64,000 bases of DNA from Halobaculum limi (GTDB lineage Archaea; Halobacteriota; Halobacteria; Halobacteriales; Haloferacaceae), in assembly GCF_029490015.1 (NCBI RefSeq), contig NZ_CP120468.1:2542001-2606000 (forward strand). The letters are read 5' to 3'. Every line of letters starts with the position of its first letter. Position 1 is the stretch's first letter. Both the position numbers and the translations under genes were made by a program. Shown here in pieces: positions 2,010 through 61,841 of this stretch. Below the pieces are notes generated by a model. That model ran no database searches. It saw only the letters and a program-made list of their open reading frames with translations, and had not been told where the DNA came from.

Positions 2010-3334
2010 GTAGCGAGGGTGAGCGAAGCGAGGCCGCGAATCGAACGGGGAGCGAGGCGGCCGGAGACGGCGGCGGGGGCGACGGCGAGTGGGTCACCGC
2101 TGGAGACGGCAAGTTCGGTCGCTACGGCGGCCAGTACGTCCCCGAGGCACTGATGCCGGCCATCGAGGAGTTGACCGACGCCTACGAGCGGTACGTCCTC
2201 AACAACGAGGACGGCTTTATGGACGAGTTCCGCCAGCGGATTCGCGACTTCGGTGGACGGCCCACGCCGCTCCAGCGCGCGGATCGCCTGTCTGAGCGGT
2301 ACGACACCGAGGTGTACCTCAAGCGTGAGGATCTGCTCCACGGCGGCGCACACAAACTCAACAACGCCCTCGGGCAGGTGCTCCTGGCGAAGTACATGGG
2401 CAAAGAGCGCATCATCGCGGAGACGGGCGCGGGCCAACACGGCACCGCGACGGCGATGGCGGCCGCACACCTCGGGATGCCGTGTGAGGTGTATATGGGG
2501 GAACGCGACATCAATCGCCAGCGTCCCAACGTCTTCCGGATGAAGATCAACGGCTCGGAAGTGACGCCCGTGACGACCGGTCGCGGGACGCTGAAGGAGG
2601 CCATCTCCGAGACGATGCGCGACTGGGCGACGAACGTCGAGGACACCCACTACGTCATCGGGTCCATCGTCGGTCCGCACCCGTTCCCGCAGATGGTGCG
2701 CGACTTCCAGGCGCTCATCTCCGAGGAGGCACGGCGGCAGATTCGCGACCAGACCGGGGGCCTCCCGGACTCGGTCGTCGCCTGCGCGGGCGGCGGGTCG
2801 AACACGATGGGGTCGTTCCACCACTTCGTCGGAGACGAAGGCGTGGACCTGCTGGCCGTCGAGGCCGGCGGATCGTCGCTCGCCGTCGACGAGGCAGAGG
2901 GCGTCGCACCCAACTCCGCGTCGCTGTCGACGGGGACGGAAGGCGTCCTCCACGGCGCACGCACCAAACTCCTACAGGACCGTGACGGTCAGATCGTCGA
3001 GAGCCACTCCGTCTCCTCGGGCTTAGACTACGCGGGCGTCGGCCCGGAACTGGCGTACCTCGTCGACGAGGACCGCGTCACGCCCGTCAACGTCGACGAC
3101 GACGCGGCTATCGAGGGCTTCCACCGCCTCTCGCAGGAGGAGGGCATCATCCCCGCGCTGGAGACGGCCCACGCACTCGGCTACCTCCACGAACACCACG
3201 AGGAACTCGGCGATGTGACCGTGATCAACGTATCCGGACGCGGTGACAAAGACCTCGACACGGCCATCGAAGAGACGACGAAACGCGACATCGCGAACGC
3301 GCCGGATATGTCGATGTTCGAGGGGGGACTGTGA
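2006..3334 (+). CDS. trpB: Tryptophan synthase beta subunit
   Basis: TrpB condenses indole with serine using pyridoxal phosphate. The 442-residue protein has an extra acidic/Gly-rich N-terminus of about 30 residues before the family start [15 protein letters not shown]. The PLP lysine is in [13 protein letters not shown] near residue 114, the catalytic Glu in AETGAGQHG near 136, and the PLP phosphate loop is [10 protein letters not shown] near 260. The GVGPELAYL segment places it in the canonical TrpB1 class that pairs with TrpA. It overlaps trpC by 4 bases (ATGA) and trpA by 1 base (TGATG), so the three genes form one operon. Confidence 0.98.
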
Positions 3335-4194
3335 TGACGGACGCCCCATCTTCCGAGGCCATCGCCGCCGCCTTCGCGGACGGCCCGGCGTTCGTCCCGT
3401 ATCTCGCCGTCGGCGACCCCGACTACGAGTCGTCGCTGGCGTACGTGGAGGCACTCGAACGCGGCGGAGCCGACATCATCGAACTCGGCCTCCCGTTCTC
3501 CGAACCCATCGCCGAGGGACCGACCATCCAGAACGCCGTCGTCCGGGCGCTGGAAGCCGGGATGACGCCGACGCGCTTCTTCGAGTTCGTCGAGGAAGTC
3601 GACGTTGACGTACCGCTCGTCTGTATGACGTACTACAATCTGATCTACCAGTACGGCGACAGCGACGGCCCGCGCGACTTCGTGAAACAAGCCGCCGAGG
3701 TCGGTCTCTCGGGGTTCGTCGTCCCCGACCTCCCCGCAGAGGAGGCGGGACCGCTGCGAGAGGCGTGCGACGAGTTCGGACTGGACCTCGTCTCTATCGT
3801 CGCGCCAACGACGGGCGAAGACCGCCTTCAGCGACTCGTCGACGTCTCTTCGGGCTACCTGTACGTGCAGGCGCGACTGGGCGTCACCGGCGCGTCGTCG
3901 TCGGTGTCGGGACAGACGACGGAGTCGCTGACGCGGCTCGCGGACGTCGACCTGCCGAAGGCGGTCGGCTTCGGCATCTCCTCGGGCGAACAGGCGGCGA
4001 CCATCGTCGAGAGCGGGGCAGACGGCATCATCGTCGGCTCCGCGCTCGTGGACATCGTCGCCGAGGGCCACGCGAACGACGACTCGACCGAGGCGGTGGC
4101 CGACCGCCTCGAAACGAAGGCACGCGAACTGAAGCAGGGTGCGGTCGACGGATACGGGCGACGGACGCCGGCACCCGAAGGTACATCCGACTGA
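3334..4194 (+). CDS. trpA: Tryptophan synthase alpha subunit
   Basis: TrpA cleaves indole-3-glycerol phosphate to indole, which is channelled to TrpB. The 286-residue TIM barrel contains [19 protein letters not shown] near residue 50. The first Glu of that motif is the general acid/base (Glu49 in the bacterial enzyme). The residue equivalent to bacterial Asp60 is Glu in the IAEGP segment. The phosphate-binding loops VGFGIS and IIVGSALVD are intact. A GTG one codon earlier is possible, but ATG 3334 gives the usual TGATG junction with trpB. It is the last gene of trpCBA. Confidence 0.97.
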
Positions 4195-57896: not shown

Positions 57897-58046
57897 TCAG
57901 CCGCGTCGGATGTCGAATCCCCCGCAGTCGGGGCACTGTTGCCGATTGGCGTCGAAGCCGCGTTCACAGGCCGTACAGACGAAGTCGGGGTCGTCCTCGC
58001 TCGCCCCCACGAGCGATCTGAGTCGACTTCTGACACCCACTCCCAT
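57897..58046 (-). CDS. Zinc-ribbon microprotein
   Basis: A 49-residue protein beginning MGVGVRSRLRSLVGASEDD, then a zinc ribbon with CTAC near residue 28 and CPDCGG near 40, giving Cys-2-Cys and Cys-2-Cys, ending FDIRRG. Zinc ribbons of this size are common in haloarchaea and often bind nucleic acid or proteins. The start at 58046 (ATG) is supported by the complete four-Cys ribbon. It lies between tRNA-Gln and the DtxR-like regulator on the same strand. Confidence 0.75.
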   Translation of the reverse strand: MGVGVRSRLRSLVGASEDDPDFVCTACERGFDANRQQCPDCGGFDIRRG

Positions 58047-58103
58047 AGCGCAAAGACCCACCGCGGCCGCCCATATAACAGCGGCGGTCGTCGTCGATCA
58101 GAC

Positions 58104-58541
58104 TCAGTCGGCGGGGTTCTCGGGTTCGGCTTCGACGAGATACTCGCAGGCGTCGGTCTCGGCGTTGAAGCAGTCGGGGCACTCGCTGGAGCGGTCGATG
58201 ATCGTGTCGAGTCGCTCCGCGACGGTGTCGTCGATGACGGCCTCCAGCGAGCGTGCTTCCTCGCGGAACTCCTCGACTTCGAGGACGTTCGCGAGGAAGC
58301 GCTCGATGATGCAGTAGTTCGACAGCGCCTCGCGCGCCCGAACGATGCCGTCGTCGGTGAGCGAGACGCCCTTGTACTTCTCGTGTTCGGCGAGGCCGCG
58401 CTCCTCGAGTTTGCCGATCATCTCGTTGGCGGAGGCCGGACTCACGTCGAGTGCGTCGGCGACGGAACCGGTCGAGGCGGGGCCGTCCTCCATCTCCTGC
58501 ACGAGATAGATGGCTTTGAGATACTGGTCTGCCGTGTTCAT
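58104..58541 (-). CDS. DtxR/MntR-family regulator lacking most metal ligands
   Basis: A 145-residue protein with the DtxR/MntR layout: an N-terminal winged helix (TADQYLKAIYLVQEME, then ALDVSPASANEMIGKLEERGL near residue 30) and a helical dimer domain (NYCIIERFLANVLEVEEF near 75 and EEARSLEAVIDD near 95). Aligned with B. subtilis MntR, Asp8 becomes Gln, Glu11 Lys, His77 Tyr, Glu99 Arg and His103 Ala; only Glu102 is retained. In place of these the C-terminus has a Cys cluster ECPDCFN followed by DACEYL near 120-133. It is 2 bases downstream of the ferritin-like gene and probably co-translated. Confidence 0.88.
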   Translation of the reverse strand: MNTADQYLKAIYLVQEMEDGPASTGSVADALDVSPASANEMIGKLEERGLAEHEKYKGVSLTDDGIVRAREALSNYCIIERFLANVLEVEEFREEARSLEAVIDDTVAERLDTIIDRSSECPDCFNAETDACEYLVEAEPENPAD

Positions 58542-58543
58542 CG

Positions 58544-59029
58544 TTATCGTCGCTCCATAATCGCTGTCACTTCTTCGACGCCCTCGGCCTCCTCCTCGCG
58601 AATGCTCCGAAGCGTGTCGAGCACTTGCTCGCGGTCGACCGAGAACGACGAGTCGCTCCCCTCGATGGCCGTGATGAGGTCGTCGTAGAACTTGTACGCC
58701 GTCTCTTCGTTACACAGTTGATCGTAGAGGACGCCGTCGAAGTCCTCCGGCTTCGTCTTCCCGTACTGCGCCTCGACGAGCGTCTCTATCTCGTCGTAGG
58801 AGACCGAGTCGGCGTCCAACTCCGCGATGAGTTCCTCCAAGCGCTGGCGGTGTTCGGCCGACTCCGCGGCCGCATCGCGAAGCAGTCGCTCGATGTCGGG
58901 GTCGAACTCCTCGTCCATCGCGCGGTGGTGGTGCGTAGAGCGTGCCTCCACGACCTCTTCCAACACGACACCGATCTGGAGCAGACGCGCGAGTTGGTGG
59001 TCGGACGTGACCCGCTGGCCGAGGCTCAC
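58544..59029 (-). CDS. Ferritin-like four-helix protein
   Basis: The 161-residue protein shows four long helices with candidate iron ligands: EEVVEARSTHHH near residue 25, ESAEHRQRLEEL near 57, CNEETAYKFYDDL near 105 and IREEEAEGVEEVTAI near 143. The Glu and Glu-x-x-His patterns fit the ferritin/rubrerythrin-like group, but no rubredoxin part is present. The start is GTG 59029, and a 19-codon frame ends in the same GTGA (59026-59085). The regulator begins 2 bases later on the same strand. Iron storage or peroxide protection is inferred from the fold. Confidence 0.78.
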   Translation of the reverse strand: MSLGQRVTSDHQLARLLQIGVVLEEVVEARSTHHHRAMDEEFDPDIERLLRDAAAESAEHRQRLEELIAELDADSVSYDEIETLVEAQYGKTKPEDFDGVLYDQLCNEETAYKFYDDLITAIEGSDSSFSVDREQVLDTLRSIREEEAEGVEEVTAIMERR

Positions 59030-59085
59030 GGCCGGTCACCCCACGACGGCGGGCAGACGGGGTCGTCGGTCGATTCCGCGGTCAT
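59026..59085 (-). CDS. Possible 19-codon upstream reading frame
   Basis: A frame starting ATG 59085 encodes 19 residues, MTAESTDDPVCPPSWGDRP, and its TGA overlaps the GTG start of the ferritin-like gene as GTGA. This is the standard geometry of translational coupling, and the acidic start looks haloarchaeal. It could be a leader peptide regulating the ferritin-like gene or simply a chance frame. No homologue can be assessed at this length. Confidence 0.3.
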   Translation of the reverse strand: MTAESTDDPVCPPSWGDRP

Positions 59086-59222
59086 CGTCAGGGAATCGGT
59101 CGACGCCGACCGTAAGCCTTCCCCTCGGACGCTGTTCTCGCCGGTCGCAACGACGGTCCGACGACGGCCCGACGACGGCTCGACGCCGAACTCTCAAGCC
59201 GTCTGCGATCCAACACCCGCCG

Positions 59223-60473
59223 ATGAGTGACGCGGGCCGCGACGACGACGACGACTCCCGCCGGCAGCGACGCGACCGGATCGCACTCGCACTCGTCGTC
59301 TACGCTGTCCTCCTCGCACAGACGCTGGTGTACCCCGGCGTCGACATCCTCGCACGGGCGTTCGGCGGACAGGGCGTCGCCGCGCCCACGCTGTTTCTCG
59401 CCGTCGAGTTCGCCGCCTTCGCCGTCTTCGCCGGCCCGTGGGGCGCACTCTCTGACCGACTCGGCGAGCGTCGTCGCCTCGTTGCCCTCGCCAGCGCGGG
59501 CGGTGCGGTCGGCTATCTCGCACTCGCTGGCGTCGCCGACGCCGGGCTTCCGTTCGCGGCCGTCCTCGTCATCCGTGCGCTCCAAGGCGGTGCGACGGTG
59601 GGCGCACTCTCGTTGGCCATCTCGGCGCTCGCGGACCGCTCCGGCGGCAACGGCCGGAATATGGGCATCGCCGGCATCGCTATCGGCCTCGGCACCGCCA
59701 CCGGCGCGCCGCTCGGGGGCCAACTGTACGAGGTCGGTGCGACCGTCCCGCTGCTCGCCGCTGCTGGACTGCTCGGCGTCGCGGCCGTCGGCGCACTCAC
59801 GATTCCCGACCGTCCGCCCGCGGCCGCCGGCGACGGCGCGAGGCGGCACGGTGGCCTCTCCGCACTCCTCGCGGGACTCCGCGAGCAGCGAGACCTCTCG
59901 ATTCCGTACGCGTTCGCGTTCGTCGACCGCCTCACCGCCGGCTTCTTTGCACTCGTCGGGACGCTGTACTTCCGAGAGGCGTTCGGCCTCGGCCCCGGCG
60001 CGACTGGCCTCCTCCTCGCGGCCTTCTTCGCGCCGTTCGCGCTGCTACAGTACCCGTTCGGCCTCCTCTCGGATCGGATCGGTCGCGTCGTCCCCATCGC
60101 CGCTGGATCTGCCGTCTACGGCCTCGTCGTCGTCCTCGTCGGCCTCGCCCCGACGGTTCCGCTCGTCGCCGTCGCGATGGTCGGCGTCGGCGTCCTCGGG
60201 GCGCTGATGGCTCCGGCGACGCTGGCGCTCGTGGTCGACCTCGCGGGCGACAGCGACCGTGGTGCGGCCGTCGCCGGGTTCAACGCCGCCGGGAGTCTCG
60301 GCTTCCTCGCCGGATCGCTCGTCGGCGGCGCAGTCGCCGCGGAGTTCGGCTTCCTCGCGGCGTTCGTCGTCGCCGGCGGCAGCGAGTTCCTCCTCGCCAT
60401 CGCGGCGCTTCCGGGACTCCTCCGACTGGGTCGCCGCGCTGGGCGGTCGGCGGTGTTCAGCGGCGGCGACTGA
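59223..60473 (+). CDS. MFS transporter
   Basis: A 416-residue 12-helix transporter of the major facilitator superfamily. The N-terminal half has the motif GPWGALSDRLGERRRLVAL near residue 73, which fits MFS motif A, and the second half has QYPFGLLSDRIGRVVPIA near 278, its repeat. An ALQGGATVGALSLAISALAD segment follows in helix 4. The loop near residue 200-220 is polar. The type is close to drug-export or sugar-phosphate transporters. ATG 59223 opens an acidic N-terminus (SDAGRDDDDD). The substrate is unknown. Confidence 0.9.
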   Translation: MSDAGRDDDDDSRRQRRDRIALALVVYAVLLAQTLVYPGVDILARAFGGQGVAAPTLFLAVEFAAFAVFAGPWGALSDRLGERRRLVALASAGGAVGYLALAGVADAGLPFAAVLVIRALQGGATVGALSLAISALADRSGGNGRNMGIAGIAIGLGTATGAPLGGQLYEVGATVPLLAAAGLLGVAAVGALTIPDRPPAAAGDGARRHGGLSALLAGLREQRDLSIPYAFAFVDRLTAGFFALVGTLYFREAFGLGPGATGLLLAAFFAPFALLQYPFGLLSDRIGRVVPIAAGSAVYGLVVVLVGLAPTVPLVAVAMVGVGVLGALMAPATLALVVDLAGDSDRGAAVAGFNAAGSLGFLAGSLVGGAVAAEFGFLAAFVVAGGSEFLLAIAALPGLLRLGRRAGRSAVFSGGD

Positions 60474-60563
60474 CGGCGTCTCGACGGCGACCGACAGCGG
60501 TACTGACGGCCGCGCGACAAGACTGATACTTCACCGGGGCGTCCACTCACCCGATCAGATTCT

Positions 60564-61841
60564 ATGTCCGACCACGACCGCGAGTACGAGATCGTCCTGT
60601 GGGGCGCGACCGGGTTCACCGGCGGCCTCGTCGCCGAGTACCTCGCCGACCGCTACGGCACGACCGACCTCGACTGGGCGCTCGCCGGCCGTGACGAACG
60701 GCGTCTCGCCGCCGTTCGCGACTCGCTGGCCGACAGCAACAGTGACGCCGACGTCGACGCCGACGCGCTGGACCTCCTGACCGGCGACGCGTTCGACCAG
60801 GACTCCTTGGACGCCATCGCCGAACAGACCGCCGTCGTCATCTCGACGGTCGGCCCCTACGCCCGATTCGGCTCCCACCTCGTCGCCGCCTGCGTCGACG
60901 CGGGCACCCACTACTGCGACCTCTCGGGTGAGGTCCACTGGATGCGCGAGATGATCGACGAGCATCACGACGCCGCCCGCGAGAACGGCACGCGCATCGT
61001 CCACGGGTGCGGGTTCGACTCCGTGCCGAGCGACGTGGGAACGCTCTTCCTGCAGTCGCACGCCGAGGAGACCGTCGGCGCGTACTGCGACGAGGTGCGC
61101 GGCTTCGTCTCGATTCGGGGTGGCTCCTTCAGCGGCGGCACCATCGCGAGTATGGTCGAGATGTACGAGATGGCCAGCGAGGACCGCGAGGTGCGACGCC
61201 TCCTCGCGGACCCGCGGGCACTCGACCCGCCGGAGAGTCGCGGCGCGCCCGCCGACCGCCCGCAACGCGGCGTGGCATACGACCGCGACGCCGACACCTG
61301 GACCGCGCCGTTCGTGATGGCTCAGATCAACGAACCCGTCGTCCGTCGCTCGAACGCCCTCCTCGGCCACCCGTGGGGACACACCTTCCGCTACGGGGAA
61401 TCGCTGCGAACCGGGCAGGGTGTGAAAGCCGCGGCGACCGCCGCCGGTCTCGCGGTCGGACAAGGGTTACTCGCAGGTGCGCTCTCAGTCGGACCGGTTC
61501 GCGAACTCCTCGACCGCTACGTCCTCCCCGAGGCCGGTGAGGGGCCCGACCGCGAGACCATCGAGGGGAGTTCCTTCGAAGTGCGACTCGTGGGCACCGG
61601 TGCCTCCGACGACCACCCCTCGGGGTTCACCGTCGAGGCGCGGGTCCGCGGCGACCGCGACCCCGGCTACGGGTCGACCGCGCGGATGCTCGGTGAGTCG
61701 GCCGTCTGTCTCGCCCGCGGAGAGGTGGACTCCCCCGTGGAGGGCGGCGTGTTGACGCCGGCGTCGGGCATCGGCCTGCCGCTGATCGACCGACTGGAGG
61801 GGACTGGCGTGTCGTTCGAGGCCGAGGTCGTCGACGACTGA
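60564..61841 (+). CDS. Saccharopine-dehydrogenase-like NAD(P)-binding reductase
   Basis: The 425-residue protein has a Rossmann fold at the start (EIVLWGATGFTGGLVAEYLAD near residue 8) and the family segment VVISTVGPYARFGSHLVAAC near 90, followed by GTHYCDLSGEVHWMREMID near 112 and HGCGFDSVPSDVGTLFL near 147. This matches the trans-acting enoyl reductase/saccharopine-dehydrogenase-like group, in which members act on lipids or remain uncharacterised. The substrate is not known. It lies 90 bases after the MFS transporter on the same strand. Confidence 0.85.
   Translation: MSDHDREYEIVLWGATGFTGGLVAEYLADRYGTTDLDWALAGRDERRLAAVRDSLADSNSDADVDADALDLLTGDAFDQDSLDAIAEQTAVVISTVGPYARFGSHLVAACVDAGTHYCDLSGEVHWMREMIDEHHDAARENGTRIVHGCGFDSVPSDVGTLFLQSHAEETVGAYCDEVRGFVSIRGGSFSGGTIASMVEMYEMASEDREVRRLLADPRALDPPESRGAPADRPQRGVAYDRDADTWTAPFVMAQINEPVVRRSNALLGHPWGHTFRYGESLRTGQGVKAAATAAGLAVGQGLLAGALSVGPVRELLDRYVLPEAGEGPDRETIEGSSFEVRLVGTGASDDHPSGFTVEARVRGDRDPGYGSTARMLGESAVCLARGEVDSPVEGGVLTPASGIGLPLIDRLEGTGVSFEAEVVDD

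Follow-up and report, generated by a model that had tools for sequence, protein, structure and literature searches.

Two sets of metal ligands serve for comparison within the DtxR family of regulators, namely D8, E11, H77, E99, E102, and H103 of MntR and M10, H79, E83, H98, C102, E105, and H106 of DtxR/IdeR. In the structures of DtxR/IdeR, the ancillary site consists of H79, E83, and H98, and the segment following the dimerisation domain is folded back onto it. The closest described counterpart of the regulator dealt with here is TroR (HVO_0863) of Haloferax volcanii. According to the part of PMC11349517 in which Martinez Pastor et al. 2024 is cited, three DtxR proteins were recognized as potentially regulating iron homeostasis, HVO_0863 being among them, and TroR is referred to there as an iron-homeostasis regulator of Haloferax, where it acts on genes of iron uptake and storage. 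With regard to translation, 72% of the protein-coding transcripts of H. volcanii are leaderless (PMC4983044), and strict translational coupling was found in nine out of nine overlapping gene pairs tested in this organism (PMC6728339).

The present analysis concerns a stretch of 64,000 nucleotides from Halobaculum limi, referred to as the window, in which a DtxR-family gene is preceded by a ferritin-like gene and a 19-codon frame. The regulator gene as such is already known (troR); no description of the loss of its iron site, of its set of four cysteines, or of the upstream ORF (uORF) was encountered in the literature searched, which comprised sources other than the primary TroR paper, where metal-site data may be contained.

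Organization of the Locus and Identity of the Regulator Gene

All three frames are located on the minus strand and are arranged, in the direction of transcription, as the 19-codon frame (59085-59026), the ferritin-like gene frt (59029-58544), and the DtxR-family gene (58541-58104), with 2 nt separating the latter two in the window. Rechecking of the ORFs confirmed the coordinates and frames of the initial annotation, including the overlap of the first two frames through GTGA.

58104..58541, minus strand: troR, DtxR-family regulator of 145 amino acids; canonical metal site lost by alignment, candidate four-Cys site; both Pfam domains above cut-off
58544..59029, minus strand: ferritin-like gene (frt), predicted four-helix protein of 161 amino acids, GTG start, Dps/bacterioferritin-like fold
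59026..59085, minus strand: 19-codon uORF, MTAESTDDPVCPPSWGDRP; its stop overlaps the frt start by GTGA; equivalent present in 98 of 103 distinct loci

In the 145-amino acid product, the N-terminal winged-helix domain PF01325 is recognized with 66 bits (cut-off 26) and the metal-binding/dimerisation domain PF02742 with 40.4 bits (cut-off 27), and the nearest solved structures are MntR/DtxR/IdeR-type regulators (e.g., 1on1, 2isy, and 8pvt). Matches are found in 56 out of 60 sampled relatives and, at E <= 1e-20, in all 47 good genomes, the latter count including a few genomes whose sole match is a related type of 44-50% identity. A degenerate pseudogene is not compatible with these data, since the gene is intact and its orthologues across the order are about 64-94% identical. 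The gene order sufB-sufD-frt-troR recurs across the relatives.

The assignment to a described gene is based on published PCR primers flanking HVO_0863 of H. volcanii, for which a product of 1,767 bp is stated. The forward primer matches the loci of Haloferax prahovense and H. gibbonsii without a single mismatch (L047:4442-4461; L077), at a site between sufD and frt, 540-560 nt ahead of the regulator gene; for the reverse primer, no placement was found in these two loci. The position of the forward primer, taken together with the product length, identifies the regulator as the gene in the middle, that is, HVO_0863. By published primer and synteny, the gene at 58104-58541 is the orthologue of H. 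volcanii TroR; the order suf-frt-troR is shared, and protein identity to the Haloferax sequences is 75-79%. There is no fundamental difference between the two systems, except that in Halobaculum two genes are inserted between sufD and frt, encoding an MFS transporter and a dehydrogenase-like protein (59224-61841 in the window), while in many other genera sufD is located close before frt. Just downstream of troR, a small zinc-ribbon-like frame with two CxxC pairs is found (57897-58061, minus strand), and similar frames occupy this place in several related genera.

Loss of the Classical Metal Site

TroR has the winged-helix DNA-binding domain and the dimerisation domain in common with DtxR/IdeR and MntR, but it is devoid of an SH3/FeoA domain, its metal ligands are replaced with the exception of the equivalents of E83 and E105, and four invariant cysteines are added. 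According to the alignment, the protein of the window carries Q6, K9, Y76, R97, E100, and A101 at the six MntR ligand positions, while from the DtxR/IdeR set only E80 (corresponding to E83) and E100 (corresponding to E105) are retained; over the combined DtxR and MntR positions, the residues read Q6, K9, Y76, E80, R93, R97, E100, and A101. In a set of 100 distinct orthologous sequences, each sharing 64% identity or more with the protein of the window, Q6, Y76, and E100 are found in all 100, A101 or its alternatives Pro and Ser in 99, E80 in 98, K9 in 97, R97 in 86, and R93 in 84.

It had been proposed at the outset that five out of six MntR ligands are replaced. The five substitutions Q6, K9, Y76, R97, and A101 are indeed present, but Lys9 carries no diagnostic weight, given that Lys likewise occupies the position of MntR Glu11 in the SirR-type paralogue of this genome, whose site is intact. 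This paralogue (L001:1312-2031; 239 amino acids) belongs to the same family, with 39% identity over the matched part, and differs from TroR in that all of its ligands are retained (D, H, E, H, D, E, and H) and the four cysteines are missing. That a better alignment would restore the ligands of TroR can be dismissed, since the alignments with solved structures, with outgroups, and with the genome's own SirR-type protein are concordant. The comparison supports the view that loss of the classical ligands is a fixed and ancient property of the whole TroR orthologous group. Judged from its sequence, TroR is a member of the DtxR family in fold and ancestry, but not a classical metal-activated one.

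The invariance of E100 and the presence of E80 in 98 out of 100 orthologues would be in line with a classical site that functions with altered ligands, for instance, E80 and E100 complemented by a residue of the partner subunit. Such a site is very improbable, as the remaining positions are occupied by Gln, Tyr, Arg, and Ala/Pro/Ser, which are implausible ligands of a transition metal, and a cation would be repelled by Arg93 and Arg97.

Four Invariant Cysteines

The C-terminal CPDC motif and a further Cys, pointed out in the initial annotation, correspond to C121, C124, and C132, which are invariant in 100 out of 100 orthologues. A fourth invariant residue, Cys77, had escaped the first reading.

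58311..58313, minus strand: codon of Cys77; Cys in 100 of 100 orthologues; adjoins former ligand position 76
58170..58181, minus strand: CPDC motif with the codons of Cys121 and Cys124; both Cys in 100 of 100 orthologues
58146..58148, minus strand: codon of Cys132, fourth invariant Cys; Cys in 100 of 100 orthologues

Cys77 neighbours the position equivalent to H79 of DtxR/IdeR, and in sampled archaeal outgroups, position 77 is occupied by Arg, Gln, Gly, Glu, or His. The AlphaFold2 model of TroR is confident in the DNA-binding part, while pLDDT values of 50-61 are obtained around residues 111-140, where the other three cysteines are located. In the reading preferred here, the four cysteines would constitute one metal or Fe-S centre which has taken over the role of the lost site as iron sensor. 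Zinc, iron, and an Fe-S cluster cannot be told apart from the sequence alone. The binding of any metal by these residues is not to be assumed either, considering that most, but not all, of the small CPxCG proteins of H. volcanii that were tested bind zinc (PMC11241148). It had further been suggested that the altered site implies a different signal, such as zinc, an Fe-S cluster, or redox state. This is unsafe, because the Haloferax orthologue is described as an iron regulator in the relevant part of PMC11349517; the signal of TroR may still be iron, read by another site.

Related DtxR Types and a Possible Order of Events

A related haloarchaeal type, 44-50% identical to TroR, carries the ligands M-H-E-H-C-E-H, which is exactly the DtxR set, together with all four TroR cysteines, including the CPDC pair. 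It was observed in L113-L116, L118, L119, and L135. In several sampled genomes it is the sole match besides the SirR type, while two other genomes possess it alongside TroR; in L113, L114, and L116 it adjoins a distant ferritin-like homologue (32-38% identity). The idea that the genomes containing this type are those of anaerobes was abandoned, as three of them have cytochrome oxidase (PF00115) and one TroR genome is without it. Other archaeal DtxR relatives have an intact site and usually one or two cysteines in the tail, but no C77.

Since an intact iron site and the four cysteines occur together in the related type, the latter did not originate as a substitute for the former. This suggests that they are a feature separate from the iron site, which would have been kept by TroR when the iron site was lost. 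The main rival to a four-Cys sensor takes up precisely this point. According to this alternative, the cysteines would hold a structural zinc ion fixing the C-terminal tail of TroR, and the iron signal would come from another site, from a partner such as the adjacent ferritin-like protein, or from control of the TroR level. Coexistence with an intact iron site is what would be expected of a structural element, and the prevalence of zinc among the tested small CPxCG proteins of H. volcanii (PMC11241148) points in the same direction. On the other hand, it would leave a published iron regulator without any sensor site, Cys77 adjoins the former position of an ancillary ligand, and all four cysteines have outlived the classical site. 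On balance, a structural zinc is considered the less likely of the two readings.

Short DtxR-like paralogues devoid of both the ligands and the four cysteines also occur (L120, L121, L122, and L125, with QLYSELAG or QLYSEMAG at the site positions), the one of L120 (matching 2895-3278) being located on the second replicon of the same genome. In addition, L117 (G020; matching 2970-3380) contains a second TroR-like copy of 54% identity, which is site-less (RKSQRREP) and has all four cysteines. In a tree calculated after removal of the ligand and cysteine columns, TroR, the TroR-like paralogue, and the Cys-less set fall on one side of a branch with a support of 100/99. As the site-less proteins share this side, a single loss of the classical site in their common ancestor is the simplest assumption. 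The first tree supports an origin of the four cysteines before the loss of the site, and a single one; after removal of the ligand and cysteine columns, however, this single origin is recovered in 40% of the bootstrap trees, and a robust single origin is no longer maintained. That the four cysteines predate the loss of the classical site is suggested, but not robustly so.

The nearly complete and ancient loss of the classical ligands could also mean that TroR senses no metal at all, binding DNA constitutively and exerting control through its amount or through competition with metal-sensing DtxR paralogues. The retention of an intact SirR-type paralogue in the genome and the related plasmid-type paralogues that have lost ligands and cysteines alike would fit such a scheme. 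The strict conservation of the four cysteines would then be left without explanation, though, while Cys-less paralogues persist without them, and constitutive binding is regarded as improbable.

The Ferritin-Like Gene

A homologue of frt adjoins troR in the loci checked. With its product, the Pfam model Rubrerythrin scores 20.8 bits, just under the cut-off of 22.8, and it matches 23 out of 39 members of the frt family; a profile search against the PDB yielded no significant match. The AlphaFold2 model (pLDDT 88.7, pTM 0.86) gives as best Foldseek match the bacterioferritin-related thioferritin 2vzb (query TM-score 0.75, E 5.7e-3), followed by mostly Dps-type structures, with bacterioferritin-like ones among the neighbours. 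Thus, by its predicted structure, the frt product is ferritin-like in fold, sharing the four-helix arrangement with Dps and thioferritin. In comparison with the ferritin-like superfamily, its diiron pattern is altered. The invariant residues are E24, E25, E28, E56, H60, E108, E109, and E147, and the standard motifs (E, ExxH, E, ExxH) are not intact, helix 2 showing ExxxH (E56/H60) and helix 4 showing E147xxG150. A different metal site is possible.

Upstream ORF, Promoter-Like Element, and Probable Coupling of Translation

Each of the 11 Halobaculum genomes contains a frame of 19 or 20 codons that begins with ATG and terminates in the same overlap with frt. The comparison was extended to 103 distinct loci, which represent many named genera and are related to one another, hence not independent. 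In 98 of them, a mini-frame of 6-22 codons starts with an in-frame ATG and terminates at the TGA of a (G/A)TGA overlap. Dinucleotide shuffles (200 rounds) gave a chance level of 12 +/- 3.2 out of 103, with a maximum of 21, and the other two reading frames before frt contain a mini-frame in three loci and one locus, respectively. The keeping of the frame over so many different lengths is unlike chance expectation, despite the kinship of the loci. The peptides encoded have little in common beyond close relatives, so that the parts kept are the start, the frame, and the stop, and a sequence-specific leader peptide is not supported. The conserved AGY second codon provides no independent proof, since haloarchaea show a general preference for adenine following the start codon (PMC4983044). 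A conserved TATG...GTATCG pattern upstream of frt, first read as an operator, turned out to be the start of the uORF.

The distance of the mini-frame from a putative promoter is likewise conserved.

59107..59124, minus strand: BRE/TATA-like element, GGGGAAGGCTTACGGTCG; basal promoter-like; CTTAC begins 31 nt before the uORF ATG

The element GGGGAAGGCTTACGGTCG has a single exact match in the whole genome. Related loci show a conserved GGGAAC..CTTAAG block 29-33 nt before the uORF ATG. A TATA-like element is located at this distance in 90 out of 98 loci, while its distance to the frt start is mostly variable (about 61-90 nt). Seen from the promoter, an ATG follows 27-35 nt downstream in 90 out of 91 cases, and all 90 promoter-anchored ATGs are in frame and open, with lengths of 6-20 codons; together with the 98 mini-frames against 12 expected, this excludes a chance ORF. 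In all five loci that are without a mini-frame, the TATA-like element is positioned 30-34 nt before the frt start itself. A Shine-Dalgarno-like motif precedes frt in 80 out of 103 loci. In addition to GGGAAC..CTTAAG, conservation of up to 1.7 bits per base is seen in a CcgAg block that follows the TATA-like element at a distance of 17-21 nt (e.g., in L041 and L054) and may represent an operator or a feature of initiation.

From the comparison of loci, the mini-frame is probably a leaderless uORF that delivers ribosomes to frt by termination-reinitiation. With the uORFs and reinitiation pairs described for H. volcanii (PMC4983044, PMC6728339) it has in common the short ORF and the 4-nt overlap of stop and start; the uORFs tabulated in PMC4983044, however, were found in leaders of 150-250 nt, while the frt uORF starts at the expected transcription start and is kept over many genera. 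The initial proposal of a joint translation of all three frames can be upheld in part. Coupling of the uORF with frt is strongly supported by the comparison. A tight coupling that includes troR as the third frame is not a conserved trait, given that the spacing between frt and troR ranges from -4 to 281 nt and is often 13-82 nt; with the 2-nt gap of the window, coupling of frt to troR is plausible.

Proposed Mechanism

The best explanation of the locus as a whole, which is given an even chance of being correct, combines a TroR protein without classical site, a sensing centre of four cysteines, a leaderless uORF, and reinitiation at frt. Transcription would start at the ATG of the uORF, which comprises 10-20 codons; ribosomes would terminate at its TGA and resume translation at the GTG/ATG of frt overlapping with it, the frt product probably binding or storing iron. 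In this scheme, a single transcript would yield both an iron-binding protein and the regulator. In TroR, C77 on the dimerisation helix, together with C121, C124, and C132 on the tail, would connect the two next to the former ancillary site, thereby taking the part played by the folded-back segment of DtxR/IdeR. This tie would set the TroR dimer for binding of DNA, and the switch would be the cysteine centre itself or the loss of this centre when iron is scarce or oxidation occurs. Somewhat more tentatively, it may be proposed that a main iron regulator of haloarchaea senses iron or Fe-S status through the four-Cys centre, which once would have been present beside the classical DtxR site and later replaced it.

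Summarizing, in an archaeon amenable to genetic work, TroR is published as the primary regulator of iron; judged by its sequence, it is nevertheless devoid of the known iron-sensing chemistry of the DtxR family, which makes the sensing mechanism a directly testable question. If sensing by the four cysteines holds true, TroR would be an Fe-S or Cys-metal sensor of DtxR fold that is encoded beside the suf genes of Fe-S assembly. The related type with both sites offers a natural intermediate stage in the exchange of one metal site for another by a sensor. The uORF, in turn, would represent an unusually well-conserved case of the proposed leaderless initiation followed by reinitiation, and the loci in which the promoter directly precedes frt and the uORF is missing offer a clean prediction on translation start in haloarchaea.
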